From: Dehalococcoidia bacterium
GTDB lineage: Bacteria; Chloroflexota; Dehalococcoidia; Lucifugimonadales; Lucifugimonadaceae
Direction: 5' to 3'
NCBI GenBank assembly: GCA_009693115.1
Contig: SHXW01000026.1
Location: 1 to 33,024 of the forward strand
Length of the DNA: 33,024 bases
Below are positions 1-33,024 of the stretch, piece after piece. Both the position numbers and the translations under genes were made by a program. The notes beneath the pieces were generated by a model. That model saw nothing but the letters and a program-made list of their open reading frames with translations. It made no database searches and was not told the origin of the DNA. How positions within the stretch are numbered: the first letter of the stretch is position 1; each line of letters begins with the position of its first letter.

Positions 1-320
1 CGTCATAGGAGCCGCAGGAGCCTTCAGCCTCCGTCATCCCGATTCCGGCTTGCTGTGAACGGGATCTGGGGCGGGGATATATGCCAAAGCCGTGCGCAAC
101 AGCCCGGATTCCTCCCTGCGCTGCGCACCGGTTCGGAATGACGGCAACAGCCTGACGCCGGGCCATGGAGCGGGACGAGCGCCTCCGGCGTGGAAGAGGG
201 TTGGGGGAGGCGAGTCCTCACAGGTTTCCCATTCTGTGGGCGACTCAGACATACTCTGAAGTGCCACATGTAACATTTGCGCCGCTACTGCCGCTTCGGT
301 TGACGCAGCCCGGGTAACCC
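1..320. other. Non-coding stretch upstream of pstB
   Basis: No convincing coding region is seen here. The minus-strand open frames crossing it have no recognisable domain and run through a dispersed palindromic repeat at 33-142. The remainder (about 145-320) is the immediate upstream region of pstB and should hold its leader if pstB has its own promoter. I see no clear -35/-10 pair or ribosome binding site. Other pst genes (pstS, pstC, pstA), if adjacent, would lie left of the window. Confidence 0.5.
33..142. repeat. Dispersed palindromic intergenic repeat, family 1, copy A
   Basis: The ends are a near-perfect inverted repeat, GTCATCCCGA at 33-42 and TCGGAATGAC at 133-142 (9 of 10 pair). The interior shares ATCTGGGGCGGGGA (64-77) exactly with copy C at 14467-14480. 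Three more elements with the same architecture (about 103-120 bp, ends of the type GTCATTCNGA) lie at 13715-13825, 14433-14535 and 16211-16330. It resembles a short non-autonomous palindromic element, but no transposase is present. Confidence 0.7.
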
Positions 321-4969: not shown

Positions 4970-6391
4970 CTACACGCCTGCCACGGTATACGGCAGGGTG
5001 AACGGCCCCTTGAGGTCGGGATACAGCTCGGGCCGGATACCTCTGAGTAGTTCAACGGCCTCGGCGGCGATAAAAAGTGAGCCCGTGGCGACGATGATGC
5101 CGTTCGGTCCAGCAAGCTGGCGCGCCATTTCCAGTGCCGAGGCTGTGTCCGACGCTGACGCTGCTGGTGTCACTTTATCTTTTTCCAGCGCAGCCGCGAA
5201 GTCGGCGGCAGGGACGGCCTTCGGGTGGCGTGACTGTGTGACTATGAGCTTCGCGTTGCGTGGACGCCCGGACGCCCCGCCATGACGCATGAGCGTGCGC
5301 GCCGTTGCCGTGTAGTCATGACCGAACGTGCCGCCAATGACGTATATCACCGGCGAACGTGTGGCGAAGTGACGATCGATCGTGGCGGCCAGAGTGCGGG
5401 CCGAGGCTTCATTGTGTGCGCCGTCGGCCAAGATCATCGGCGGGCCGTGCGTGACAATCTCGGCGCGCGCCGGCCACTTCACTTCGCGCAGGCCGCGCGC
5501 AATGGAAGCTGTTGTCACATTGAACCCACTGGCGGCCAAGGCCTCCAGTGCGGCGACGGCGGAGCGGGCGTTATCTATCTGGTGCGGGCCGAGCAGCGGC
5601 AGGGTGATGTGGTGTTCACCCAGCCTGCCGAGCAGGATGAACTTCTGCGGCCCTTCCGACGGCGGCTCTTCGGAGACGAGCGCGGCGGCGGACATGGCGT
5701 CAGTGAGCGGCGCCTGCGTTTCGCTGGCGACCCTCTCTAGGACGCGCCGTGCCTCCGGCTCCTGCCTGCCAGTCACGACTCCCACGCCCGGCTTGATGAT
5801 GCCCGCCTTCTCCAGAGCGATCTTGGCGATGGTGTCACCGAGGATGAGGACGTGGTCTAGGCTGATGGGCGTGATGACGCTGATGGCGGGCTGCACGAGG
5901 TTTGTGGCGTCAAGCCTTCCCCCCATGCCTACCTCGATCACCGCTGCGCCGCACCGGGTGTCCCGGAAGTGGACGAAGGCCATCGCCGTGAGGAGCTCGA
6001 AGACGCTTACCCGTCCAAGCGTGTCTTGCGCTGCCATGGCCTCAACGTCAGGCCACAGGCGCTCCATGAGGGCGGCGAACTCCTCTCCGGAGATGGGCTG
6101 GCCGTCTATCTGGATGCGTTCCGTGAACCTGTGCAGGTGCGGCGACGTGTAAAGGCCGGTGCGGTATCCGGCGGCGCGCAGGCACGAGGCGATCATGGCT
6201 GACGTGCTGCCTTTGCCCTTCGATCCGGCCACATGCACGGCTGGCACGGCAAGGTGGGGGTCGCCCACTCTGGCGAGGAGGGCTTCCATCCGTTTGAGGT
6301 GCCAGCTGGGAGGTTCGCCGGCGCGCGACTTTCGCTCGAAATCGGCGAGCGTGAGCATCTGGTCTATGGCTTCTCTGTATGAAAAAGGCAT
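4970..6391 (-). CDS. folC: Dihydrofolate synthase / folylpolyglutamate synthase (FolC)
   Basis: FolC adds glutamate to dihydropteroate and/or to tetrahydrofolate, retaining folates in the cytoplasm. It belongs to the Mur ligase superfamily. Visible motifs, numbered from ATG 6391 (473 residues), are the P-loop GSKGKGST at 56-63, TSPHL at 82-86, EVGMGGRLDATN at 153-164, WPAR at 306-309 and DGAHN at 323-327, the last marking the C-terminal glutamate-ligase domain. The start MPFSYREAIDQML resembles the family N-terminus. ATG 6427 would add 12 residues, and neither start has a clear Shine-Dalgarno. The protein is about 50 residues longer than E. coli FolC. fabF follows on the same strand after 79 bases. 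Whether it has one or both activities cannot be told from sequence. Confidence 0.93.
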   Translation of the reverse strand: MPFSYREAIDQMLTLADFERKSRAGEPPSWHLKRMEALLARVGDPHLAVPAVHVAGSKGKGSTSAMIASCLRAAGYRTGLYTSPHLHRFTERIQIDGQPISGEEFAALMERLWPDVEAMAAQDTLGRVSVFELLTAMAFVHFRDTRCGAAVIEVGMGGRLDATNLVQPAISVITPISLDHVLILGDTIAKIALEKAGIIKPGVGVVTGRQEPEARRVLERVASETQAPLTDAMSAAALVSEEPPSEGPQKFILLGRLGEHHITLPLLGPHQIDNARSAVAALEALAASGFNVTTASIARGLREVKWPARAEIVTHGPPMILADGAHNEASARTLAATIDRHFATRSPVIYVIGGTFGHDYTATARTLMRHGGASGRPRNAKLIVTQSRHPKAVPAADFAAALEKDKVTPAASASDTASALEMARQLAGPNGIIVATGSLFIAAEAVELLRGIRPELYPDLKGPFTLPYTVAGV

Positions 6392-13639: not shown

Positions 13640-13945
13640 GGCGGGCAATGTTAGCGGATGTGTGTTGCCGCGATCCGTACCCGTCCCAATGGGTGAACGG
13701 TAGCCGAGAACACCCTCATCCCGACTGTAGTGGAGGGATCTGCCCCTTCTCGAACAGCCAGGTCTGCATGCAATCAGAGAGGCTCTGAAACAGATGTCAG
13801 GTCCCTCGCCTACGCTCGGGATGAGGATGGCTGCTGACTGCAACTCTTGTTCAGAATGCCCGCGCCCCAACCCTCTCCCATCAGGAGCAGGGGACCATCA
13901 CAGTGTTAGACTGCCGGACGCTGATCAACGTAAGAAGGAGTTCAT
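13640..13945. other. Divergent gap between the ROK kinase and the VOC gene
   Basis: These 306 bases contain family 1 repeat copy B (13715-13825) and a CCCTCTCCC-type remnant near 13868. AAGGAG at 13935-13940 is the ribosome binding site of the VOC gene. No coding region is supported. Promoters for the two divergent genes must lie here or inside the repeat, but no clear -35/-10 pair stands out. Confidence 0.5.
13715..13825. repeat. Dispersed palindromic intergenic repeat, family 1, copy B
   Basis: Perfect 10-bp terminal inverted repeats, CTCATCCCGA (13715-13724) and TCGGGATGAG (13816-13825), enclose about 90 bases that include AGGGATCTG near the left end and GTCCCTCGCC near the right. The size and plan match copies A, C and D. 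Confidence 0.7.
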
Positions 13946-14422: not shown

Positions 14423-14432
14423 ACGGCGTCGC

Positions 14433-14535
14433 GTCGTTCCTGCCCTGAGCGGGAGCGAAGGGAGGAATCTGGGGCGGGGACATGGAGTGTTCTGAAGCCA
14501 CACCTCCCAAGATTCCTCGCTCCGCTCGGAATGAC
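14433..14535. repeat. Dispersed palindromic intergenic repeat, family 1, copy C
   Basis: The ends GTCGTTCC (14433-14440) and GGAATGAC (14528-14535) pair at seven of eight positions. The inner arms GGAGGAATCT and AGATTCCTCGC extend the inverted repeat. ATCTGGGGCGGGGA (14467-14480) is identical to copy A. The right end overlaps the ATG at 14531 that opens the next reading frame. Confidence 0.75.
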
Positions 14536-15094
14536 GGTGCCTGAAGTAGAGAAAATGGCCACCGAACACCGCATAGATCTGTCTGTTATCCCGCACCGGC
14601 CCGGCCAGTCCGAAGGCTTGGAGGCGCGGCGAAAACGCGCCTGGGACACCCTCACCGAGTCAGAGCGGCCCGGTGTGATAGAGGCGTACGGCCGGCCCGT
14701 TACCAACTGGGAGATGCCGTGCATCGAGGCGGGCGGAGTATACGAGCGCACCCTGTACGCGCTGGTCGTCCTGTGGGCGCGGCTTACCCCGGGGCAGATC
14801 GGGTACATGCTCATCGCTCGTTGGCATAAGGGAGCGGACCAGACCACCATCAGGACCAAGCTCGCTCTGATGGTTAGCAAGGGACATGCCCGGTGGACGC
14901 GTGATGGGCGTTACTACGCAACGGAAGAAGGCGCGGTGTTCATGCGGGCGATGGAGACGGCATGGGCCGTGAGGCAGCGTGCCGCAATGCGGGAGCGGAG
15001 GGTTAGCGAGAGGCGTGGGCCGGTGCCGCAACCTGACCCGAGGCAAGGTACAGGGTCAGAAGAAAGTGCCAACCCAAGTCCAGATCAGCCCTAG
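14531..15094 (+). CDS. Hypothetical protein with winged-helix-like domain
   Basis: I do not recognise this 187-residue protein. The central part (about residues 72-140) looks like a winged helix. A helix-turn-helix-like stretch LTPGQIGYMLIARWHKGADQTT is followed by a helix TKLALMVSKGHARW and a wing-like DGRYYATEEG, a pattern seen in small bacterial DNA-binding proteins. The C-terminal 45 residues are Arg- then Pro/Ser-rich and probably disordered. There is no signal peptide or membrane segment. The ATG at 14531 lies inside the terminal inverted repeat of family 1 copy C; an alternative ATG at 14555 clears the repeat but has only GTAGAG upstream. It is convergent with the SDR gene at 15151. 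A regulator is a guess. Confidence 0.55.
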   Translation: MTVPEVEKMATEHRIDLSVIPHRPGQSEGLEARRKRAWDTLTESERPGVIEAYGRPVTNWEMPCIEAGGVYERTLYALVVLWARLTPGQIGYMLIARWHKGADQTTIRTKLALMVSKGHARWTRDGRYYATEEGAVFMRAMETAWAVRQRAAMRERRVSERRGPVPQPDPRQGTGSEESANPSPDQP

Positions 15095-16103: not shown

Positions 16104-16210
16104 TTGATTACGGGGTCGCCTTCAGGGAGGTCGTGGAGCCGCAGCGAATTGTAGTAGGGCAGACGTTGCGGCCCAAACAACGGCTACAATTGGCCCTCAG
16201 CCGCGGCCGT

Positions 16211-16330
16211 GTCATTCTGAGCGCAGTCCCGAAGGATTCGGGGCGGAGCGAAGAATCCAGCACCAAGAGATCAGGCGCTGCCCTTTGAGCTAGATTCTTC
16301 GTACACGGCTTCACCGGAACTCAGAATGAC
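16211..16330. repeat. Dispersed palindromic intergenic repeat, family 1, copy D
   Basis: Perfect 10-bp terminal inverted repeats, GTCATTCTGA (16211-16220) and TCAGAATGAC (16321-16330), enclose inner arms GCGAAGAATC and GATTCTTCG. It ends 26 bases before the xseB start, so it could influence xseB transcription or mRNA structure. Confidence 0.75.
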
Positions 16331-16356
16331 AGTCGCAGTGTCCTGACGCCACTCTC

Positions 16357-32617: not shown

Positions 32618-33024
32618 ATGACAGAGTGGTTCCAGAAGGGGCCTAAGGCCTTTTTCCTCGTGGTCGCGATCGTAGCCATGGTCGCAGTTGCGGGCTGCGC
32701 AGGTGCGCAGGGCCCGGCCGGGCCTGCCGGTGACCCCGGACTGCCTGGTCTACCCGGTAACCCCGGTGAGCCGGGTAACCCAGGTGCCGCAGGTTCCCAA
32801 GGTGCTGCTGGCGCTACGGGTGCTGCTGGCGCTACGGGTGCTGCTGGCGCTACGGGTGCTGCTGGCGCTGCCGGTGCTGCTGGCGCTGCCGGTGCTGCTG
32901 GTTCATCTTCGGCACTTCTGGTTACCGACGCTGCCGCAGGCACCCTTCTCTTTGTAGAGAGGAAGGGAACTGGTGACACGTTGGCGGTGGTGACCGGTAG
33001 CGGGTTCAAACCCGGCGAGAAGGT
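32618..33024 (+). CDS. Collagen-like repeat lipoprotein, partial (runs off the window)
   Basis: The frame from ATG 32618 is open to the window end (135 codons). Residues 1-27 form a lipoprotein signal peptide: a short basic start, a hydrophobic core FFLVVAIVAMVAVAG, and a lipobox ending at Cys27 (VAGC). Residues 29-94 are 22 uninterrupted Gly-X-Y triplets, starting GAQ GPA GPA GDP GLP and turning into GAA/GAT units. A non-collagen region then begins, with TLAVVTGSGFKPGEKV, similar to the start of an Ig-like/IPT-type beta domain. GGAGG lies ten bases upstream of the start. It is predicted to be membrane-anchored on the outside, with the triple-helix-forming stalk projecting a C-terminal domain. 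The function is unknown. Confidence 0.82.
   Translation, partial: MTEWFQKGPKAFFLVVAIVAMVAVAGCAGAQGPAGPAGDPGLPGLPGNPGEPGNPGAAGSQGAAGATGAAGATGAAGATGAAGAAGAAGAAGAAGSSSALLVTDAAAGTLLFVERKGTGDTLAVVTGSGFKPGEK
32801..32890 (+). repeat. 18-bp tandem repeat in the collagen-like stalk
   Basis: Five consecutive 18-base units start at 32801, 32819, 32837, 32855 and 32873. Each encodes GAAGAT (first three) or GAAGAA (last two). All units use the same codons, GGT GCT GCT GGC GCT then ACG or GCC, pointing to recent slippage-type expansion and likely length variation between strains. Confidence 0.9.

Follow-up and report, generated by a model that had tools for sequence, protein, structure and literature searches.

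Paired CGTC-type REP hairpins in a Dehalococcoidia genome and their candidate partner, a small GIY-YIG nuclease gene

Structure of the four palindromes

The window, i.e. the whole stretch of 33,024 nucleotides of Dehalococcoidia DNA that was analysed, carries four palindromes between its genes, which raise the questions of what kind of repeat they represent and by what activity such repeats might be spread. All four were found where the initial annotation had placed them, their true ends lying one base further on either side, and the 14 identical interior bases that it had noticed in copies A and C were confirmed as ATCTGGGGCGGGGA. While the palindromes themselves are real, the palindrome of ~110 bp is not the shared unit. 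The unit is its half, a hairpin of ~25-50 bases, and each copy consists of two such halves with their heads directed outward around a variable spacer (4/4 copies paired head-to-head).

Copy A (32..143), upstream of which the contig begins after 31 bases, is composed of a left half on the plus strand (32..66; tag CGTC, stem ATCCC...GGGAT, tail C) and a right half on the minus strand (107..143; tag CGTC, stem ATTCC...GGAAT, tail C). The CCTC-tagged copy B (13714..13826) includes a left half at 13714..13740 (+; CCTC, ATCCC-GA...GA-GGGAT, C) and a right half at 13801..13826 (-; CCTC, ATCCC-GA...GA-GGGAC), in which the first stem pair has been lost. Both halves of copy C (14432..14536) bear the tag CGTC; the left one (14432..14469, +) has the stem GTTCC...GGAAT followed by C, and the right one (14511..14536, -) is the canonical 26-mer CGTC-ATTCC-GA-GC-GGA-GC-GA-GGAAT-C. 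In copy D (16210..16331) the TGTC-tagged halves at 16210..16257 (+) and 16293..16331 (-) both read TGTC, ATTCT-GA...GA-AGAAT, C, and the loop of the left half contains an extra hairpin. According to crude gene calls, copies B and D lie between divergent genes, and copy A is located at the contig start.

The tags of the eight halves (CGTC in four, CCTC and TGTC in two each) are followed by a five-base stem. The complete outline is kept in seven halves, the right half of copy B being short of one stem pair. A-T pairs at stem positions 1 and 2 are exact in 6/8 halves, since the left half of copy C starts with G.T and the first pair of the right half of copy B is missing. The first tail base is C in all eight, and the bases after it vary. 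A canonical half is built of 5 bp, a tandem G.A, 2 bp and a 3-base loop, giving 21 bases from tag to tail. Copy C is the only one in the window to show the exact GNA core, and only in its right half; elsewhere the loops are longer or altered, the longer ones being found in both halves of A and D and in the left half of C.

The window harbours other repeats as well. A second intergenic family, CTCTCCCATCAGGAGCAGGGG and TTCTCCCTCACCTCTCCCGCCGGGA, is represented by inverted copies of 21-25 bases (84-90%) at 13873-13893/16083-16103 and 12570-12594/15954-15978, located partly near copies B and D. Coding repeats were observed at 32765-32908, close to the contig end (collagen-like GXY, 9-base unit), and at 25017-25276, where Gly/Cys-rich units of ~100 bases each are repeated.

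Relation to known repeat classes

The CGTC-tagged REPs, as described by Di Nocera et al. 2013 (PMC3733652), are intergenic hairpins with the tag CGTC, in many cases TGTC or CCTC, A-T at the first stem positions, a stem of 8-9 bp, a loop of 4-5 bases (Table 1 of that work; other loop lengths in some families) and a short tail with the consensus CCA. Head-to-head dimers with variable spacers predominate among them. In the same account, four families are distinguished, the repeats are reported from Proteobacteria, Chlorobi, Bacteroidetes, Spirochaetes and Thermotogae, Neisseria dRS3 and Rickettsia RPE-4/RPE-6 are included among them, and they are stated to "apparently lack a dedicated transposase".

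The copies of the window resemble these REPs in their tag variants, AT stem start, head-to-head pairs, variable spacers and intergenic position; the tail agrees in its first base, C. Because the tag, stem start and dimer type fit, with the loop length fitting more loosely (loops here often exceed 4-5 bases), the window repeats are almost certainly REPs of the CGTC type, probably belonging to a Chloroflexi lineage. In contrast to the published ones, the repeats considered here extend over ~20 phyla including Chloroflexi, possess a tandem GA and GNA core, and have a candidate partner gene.

Intergenic mosaic elements of Neisseria, in which dRS3 pairs surround RS sequences, are likewise pairs of the same hairpin type with spacers of 50-150 bp, but they form far denser arrays, whereas here mostly single pairs are seen. 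The 13-base head of the repeats (GTCATTCYGAGCG) was not found as sequence text in the papers searched, and of the 24 papers matching its 11-mer, none of the 20 whose titles were listed dealt with bacterial repeats.

Distribution in the genome and across phyla

In the 2,016,578-base genome, GTCATTCYGAGCG occurs exactly 12 times versus 0 for the reversed pattern, and 220 versus 72 times when up to two mismatches are allowed. A covariance-model scan, an approach suggested in the initial annotation, was performed with a model built from 11 copies of the same genome; at E<=1e-3 it gave 48 matches corresponding to 34 distinct places, 23 of which lie outside the training copies. Given the excess over the reversed pattern and these further places, the copies do not represent chance similarity. 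The claim that they lie between genes is borne out on the scale of the genome, all 34 places being outside the genes predicted by crude codon-usage calls. The neighbouring genes run in the same direction in 18 cases, converge in seven and diverge in five; the four unclassified places are near contig ends or lack a second gene. Among the genomes of the family to which the window belongs, the model finds matches in 18 of 41.

In the GTDB collection, at least 118 stretches from ~20 phyla contain an exact match to the 25-base half GTCATTCYGAGCGNAGCGARGAATC, while by our own arithmetic fewer than 0.01 matches are expected by chance in 257 billion bases. The record titles name, among others, Nitrospirae, Acidobacteria, Bacteroidales, Nitrospinae, Planctomycetes, Desulfovibrio, Omnitrophota, Fibrobacter, Chloroflexi, Verrucomicrobia, Lachnospiraceae, Ignavibacteria, Kiritimatiellae, Chlorobiales, Oligoflexales, Cyanobacteria, Helicobacter, Luteimonas, Poribacteria, Brocadia and Fimbriimonadales, as well as one Nanoarchaeota MAG contig, where a binning error is possible. 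Viral contigs contain 82 stretches with the half (searched in its T/A form only). The GTDB and viral-contig loci were picked by the motif, and counts drawn from them are not independent of it. The search of plasmids and phages with the half-hairpin gave few matches, mostly weak. In five viral contigs (L093, L110, L114, L119 and L162), the half-hairpin closely precedes the start codon of a gene that is apparently the same in each (MTKSKIE-type start).

The copy number differs sharply between relatives. In a sample of 400 genomes of the phylum, strict copies amount to 272 in G155, 69 in G391 and 44 in another genome, and most genomes have 0. On the single-contig chromosome of G301 (contig C1), 21 of 25 REPs are on one strand, as are 7 of 11 in G287; the replichores of G301 could not be oriented from GC skew, which was too noisy in 20 samples.

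Conservation of the hairpin core

Outside this genome, the half seen most often reads TGTC-ATTCT-GA-GC-GNA-GC-GA-AGAAT-CT. So that the core could be examined without having been selected for, the 400 genomes were searched with the pattern TGTCATTCT-N11-AGAATCT, in which the 11 middle bases are left free. The pattern was found in 40 genomes, the reversed one in none. Among the 147 matches listed, with at most 10 per genome, GA is present on both sides in 140 and a GNA loop in 132, the middle base being A in 68, C in 38, T in 14 and G in 12. The inner pair of the listed matches is G-C in 127, A-T in 19 and other in one, i.e. it co-varies, and the next pair is C-G in 139, T-A in three and other in five. 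Over 231 REPs of other genomes, the distance between inverted partners peaks at 70-90 bases.

The sequence GCGNAGC is known as an "extraordinarily stable" DNA mini-hairpin, in which a GNA/GNNA loop is closed by two or more G-C pairs, with a Tm of ~78 C for GCGAAGC (PMC4686876). The conservation of this mini-hairpin core suggests that selection may act on the DNA hairpin.

A GIY-YIG gene flanked by REPs

An unbiased search for a partner was carried out on 296 loci by collecting ORFs between outward-facing REPs 450-4000 bases apart. It yielded 14 sandwiched intervals, several of them duplicates. Three, from overlapping loci of G301, contain a GIY-YIG protein of ~94 residues, and no recurrent family was seen by eye in the other 11, some of which are duplicates. 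Scanning the loci with the G301 protein revealed further genes beside REPs in one verrucomicrobial, one nitrospiral and one viral contig and in the genome of the window itself. Three of five proteins tested exceed the Pfam cut-off for GIY-YIG (PF01541; E 6e-12 to 1e-13), and the two below it are the frameshifted copy of the own genome and a truncated fragment. NCBIfam gave one sub-threshold match, and no relative was found in PDB. The GIY alignment run against viral contigs returned one locus, on a contig already in the set, and the protein search of phages two weak records.

A profile of three GIY-YIG proteins (A3) matched 90 of the 400 phylum genomes at E<=1e-8. In a tree of 113 proteins, in which the plasmid rows were labelled as REP-flanked by hand, the strong and weak match sets are separated with a branch support of 99/94. 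Loci were taken for 70 of ~93 strong matches (30 returned as loci, 40 nearly in list order) and for 40 of ~57 weak ones. A REP lies within 250 bp of the gene in 51 of the 70 strong-clade loci (5' side 43, 3' side 40, both 32), compared to 1/40 in the weak sister clade, where no gene has REPs on both sides; the reversed-sequence control gave 0. A second detector, which allows longer loops, gave 49/70 versus 0/40, and in the 11 genomes from which loci of both clades were taken, flanking was seen for 7/13 strong and 0/13 weak genes. In the strong-clade loci the REP density is 3.29 per kb near the gene and falls to 0.49 at greater distance within these loci. In the remaining 19 strong-clade loci, including the unit of the own genome that was recognised by hand, no REP was found by the detector.

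At the genome level, a GIY match is present in 29 of 40 REP-positive versus 61 of 360 REP-negative genomes (p ~1e-12, not corrected for relatedness). Even at E<=1e-3, 11 of the 40 REP-positive phylum genomes lack a match. Within the family of the window, nine REP-positive genomes (of 18) and six REP-negative ones (of 23) were tested, and the gene (E<=1e-3) occurs in 9/9 and 0/6 of them, respectively. Twelve of 19 strong-type genes in the family genomes have a REP within 250 bp, ten on both sides (four of 26 matches, fragments or very weak, were left out). In one genus, G029 and G037 possess both the gene and REPs, and G009 and G019 neither. The two most REP-rich genomes, G155 and G391, have no clade-1 GIY gene, and their Y1 genes have no adjacent REP. 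Taken together, the clade-1 GIY-YIG gene is very probably the cognate partner of the REPs.

REP-GIY-REP units in the own genome and in other phyla

The own genome contains an intact unit of 436 bases on contig C11 (5826-6261), in which the gene match (5909-6172) is in intact frame. Its flanks, read by hand, are outward-directed REPs, CCTCATCCCGACCGGAGTCCCG...GGAGGGACCTGAC and, inverted, CCTCATTCCGACCGGAGGCCC...GGAGGAACCTGAC. These were missed by the flank detector, probably due to long loops and imperfect stems, and the covariance model gave weak matches there. A gene with matching ends in the same genome, which the initial annotation had proposed to look for as a transposase or RAYT-like gene, thus exists, but it is a GIY-YIG nuclease gene. 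Another copy of the own genome (L022) aligns to the left end of the C11 unit over ~53 bases. The terminal 18-19 bases of copy B are identical to the unit ends at 16/18 and 16/19 positions, a short match that is no more than suggestive. The second gene of this genome, on contig C22, has a REP on one side and a REP pair on the other; it is frameshifted, and its broken frame ends within the REP (...DSSLRSE).

In the plasmid collection, 34 records have a GIY homologue. Among the 14 examined, a REP is present within 250 bp of the gene in 11 by the detector and in 13 when hand reading is added; the REPs added by eye, in Novosphingobium and Sphingobium, are these hosts' own GC-rich hairpins, and in Subdoligranulum no REP was found beside the gene. 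Outward-facing REPs of the host's own type enclose the gene in Rhizobium sp. CIAT894, Shinella, Neorhizobium and Aeromonas caviae, and in Neisseria gonorrhoeae it lies within an array of dRS3-type repeats, 14 of which were detected in 1.86 kb. REP flanking of one GIY-YIG clade is seen in genomes of the own phylum and in replicons of Proteobacteria, Cyanobacteria and Bacteroidota.

A Nature Communications paper of 2025 is reported to describe "Ssn", a GIY-YIG family of site-specific ssDNA nucleases that has a repeated target in Neisseria and acts in transformation. That family resembles the proteins described here in consisting of small, widely distributed GIY-YIG proteins paired with repeats, in Neisseria among others, and the gonococcal homologue found here is likewise surrounded by dRS3-type repeats. 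The work reportedly concerned ssDNA cleavage and natural transformation; the REP-GIY-REP unit as an autonomous element, with gene-less REP pairs as its presumed derivatives, may or may not be covered by it. A part of the GIY-REP pairing may already have been published. Our literature search, partial in coverage, found no paper linking GIY-YIG with REPs, palindromes or mobility by title or abstract start, and COG2827 is not mentioned under that name in the available portion of the 2006 GIY-YIG survey (PMC1564403).

Evidence of movement

In Azospirillum lipoferum 4B, a gene copy flanked on either side by REPs is located between sufB and sufC. The insert is absent from the other 11 Azospirillum records listed, which match ~81-82% of the query in two pieces. 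Three of them, at 94-95% identity, align cleanly over the flanking genes, and in a fourth the alignment between the genes is poor. A conserved gene pair in the genus to which G029 belongs is separated by ~40-90 bases in five genomes versus ~400 in G029 and G037, which share an orthologous REP pair there; the site is occupied in 2/7 genomes. An additional REP pair distinguishes an intergenic stretch of Rhizobium L51/94 from that of B21/90, but as the sequence around it is altered as well, the comparison does not provide a clean empty site. Neither in Azospirillum nor in the G029/G037 locus could the precise ends of the insertion or a target-site duplication be resolved, and no such duplication was readable at the flanks seen. 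What the comparison of relatives shows is the presence or absence of a whole unit. In combination with the tag, stem start, pairing and copy-number differences described above, the site occupied in two of seven genomes supports the initial view of REP-like, non-autonomous mobile palindromes.

A peculiar feature, referred to here as head stutter, was found 18-26 bases upstream of 17 of the 231 REPs, against ~0.12 expected. It consists of one or more repeats of a unit of ~10 flanking bases and the 12-base head just outside a complete REP, and occurs at L187, L185, L205, L159, L213, L522 and the G029/G037 locus. In the latter (L070, L054), tandem truncated heads are present in both arms, with one more unit in G037. 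The number of stutters also differs between two Planktothrix strains. The head stutter points to repeated slippage or repair synthesis, which may take place at the hairpin.

Proposed mechanism and alternative explanations

On balance, we favour the view that the repeats are head-to-head pairs of CGTC-type REPs which would represent the gene-less form of an element with a GIY-YIG nuclease gene between REPs, and that they are spread by host repair and replication after the nuclease has nicked hairpins in single-stranded DNA. The complete element would be REP-GIY-REP, the window copies being its non-autonomous form. The nuclease would recognise the hairpin on ssDNA by its unpaired tag YGTC and short AT-led stem, in the commonest type also by the tandem G.A and GNA mini-hairpin, and would nick it there. 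Host repair and replication could then copy or rejoin the segment marked by the two heads elsewhere, and gene-less pairs would spread in trans. GIY-YIG enzymes are hydrolytic nucleases, therefore the rejoining must come from another source. We infer from the genomic association that REP hairpins are cut by the GIY-YIG nuclease, with ssDNA as the substrate. The further step, from cutting to spread, so that the nuclease would drive the expansion of the REPs, appears about equally likely to hold or to fail. A distinct transposase-free mobile class, in which a nuclease of ~100 residues nicks its own ssDNA hairpins, host repair spreads them and the CGTC-tagged REPs of ~20 phyla are its gene-less derivatives, is proposed tentatively, as an attractive possibility that falls somewhat short of being probable.

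The nuclease might instead use or inhabit the REPs without moving them, in which case the repeats would serve as recognition marks (e.g. in DNA uptake), with REP pairs as the landing sites of a gene that is a passenger of the homing type. The position of the gonococcal gene deep in an existing REP array, that of the Azospirillum gene between complete REP pairs and the reported action of a Neisseria GIY-YIG ssDNA nuclease on a repeat in transformation are all in line with such a passenger. Yet it leaves unexplained why REP expansion and the gene appear jointly in one genus (G029 and G037 versus G009 and G019), and why just one species has the whole REP-GIY-REP unit between sufB and sufC; we consider it unlikely. 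It is rather improbable that the REPs are moved by another activity, or are born of replication slippage at hairpins, and that the nuclease merely co-occurs with them. G155 and G391, which are rich in REPs and devoid of the gene, would fit, as would the excess of head stutters, suggestive of slippage or repeated repair, and their varying number between the Planktothrix strains and between G029 and G037; chance co-occurrence, however, would not make two clades that share a fold differ in flanking as they do (51/70 versus 1/40).

A spreading structured RNA, the other suggestion of the initial annotation, or a regulatory element of the terminator type would agree with the co-varying stems and with the location of 15 of the 18 copies between same-direction genes nearer the 3' end of the upstream gene (computed by hand). 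This explanation is not favoured and is judged very improbable: 5 of the 30 classifiable copies, including B and D, lie between divergent genes, Rfam gave no match in the window, and the conserved GNA loop is a known DNA mini-hairpin (PMC4686876). Least credible of all is a GTAG/RAYT identity of the REPs, with an IS200-like Y1 transposase as the mover. The general design is the same, since GTAG REPs/REPINs are short tagged hairpins in head-to-head pairs (PMC3733652), and they too have a partner gene elsewhere in the genome. Nevertheless, the tag here is CGTC, TGTC or CCTC, not GTAG, and the partner belongs to another enzyme superfamily. Y1_Tnp (PF01797, RAYT) is absent from the own genome and present in 3/41 family genomes and 5/13 REP-rich genomes, and neither a REP nor a loose tag lies within 1.5 kb of any of the 10 Y1 genes of relatives. 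A RAYT/Y1 transposase was accordingly rejected as the partner, and the link to a RAYT-like gene suggested at the outset is not supported.

In 2013 the CGTC-tagged REPs were left without a dedicated transposase (PMC3733652), a gap that obscures the origin of some of the most widespread small repeats of bacteria. With a partner gene that is flanked, genome after genome, by REPs of the host's own type, a single enzyme and short oligonucleotides would suffice to put the question to a direct test. Should the nuclease move the REPs, the outcome would be a mobile element that works through hydrolytic cleavage by a GIY-YIG nuclease and through host repair, with no transposase; should it not, there would still be a nuclease-repeat system marking genomes across phyla.
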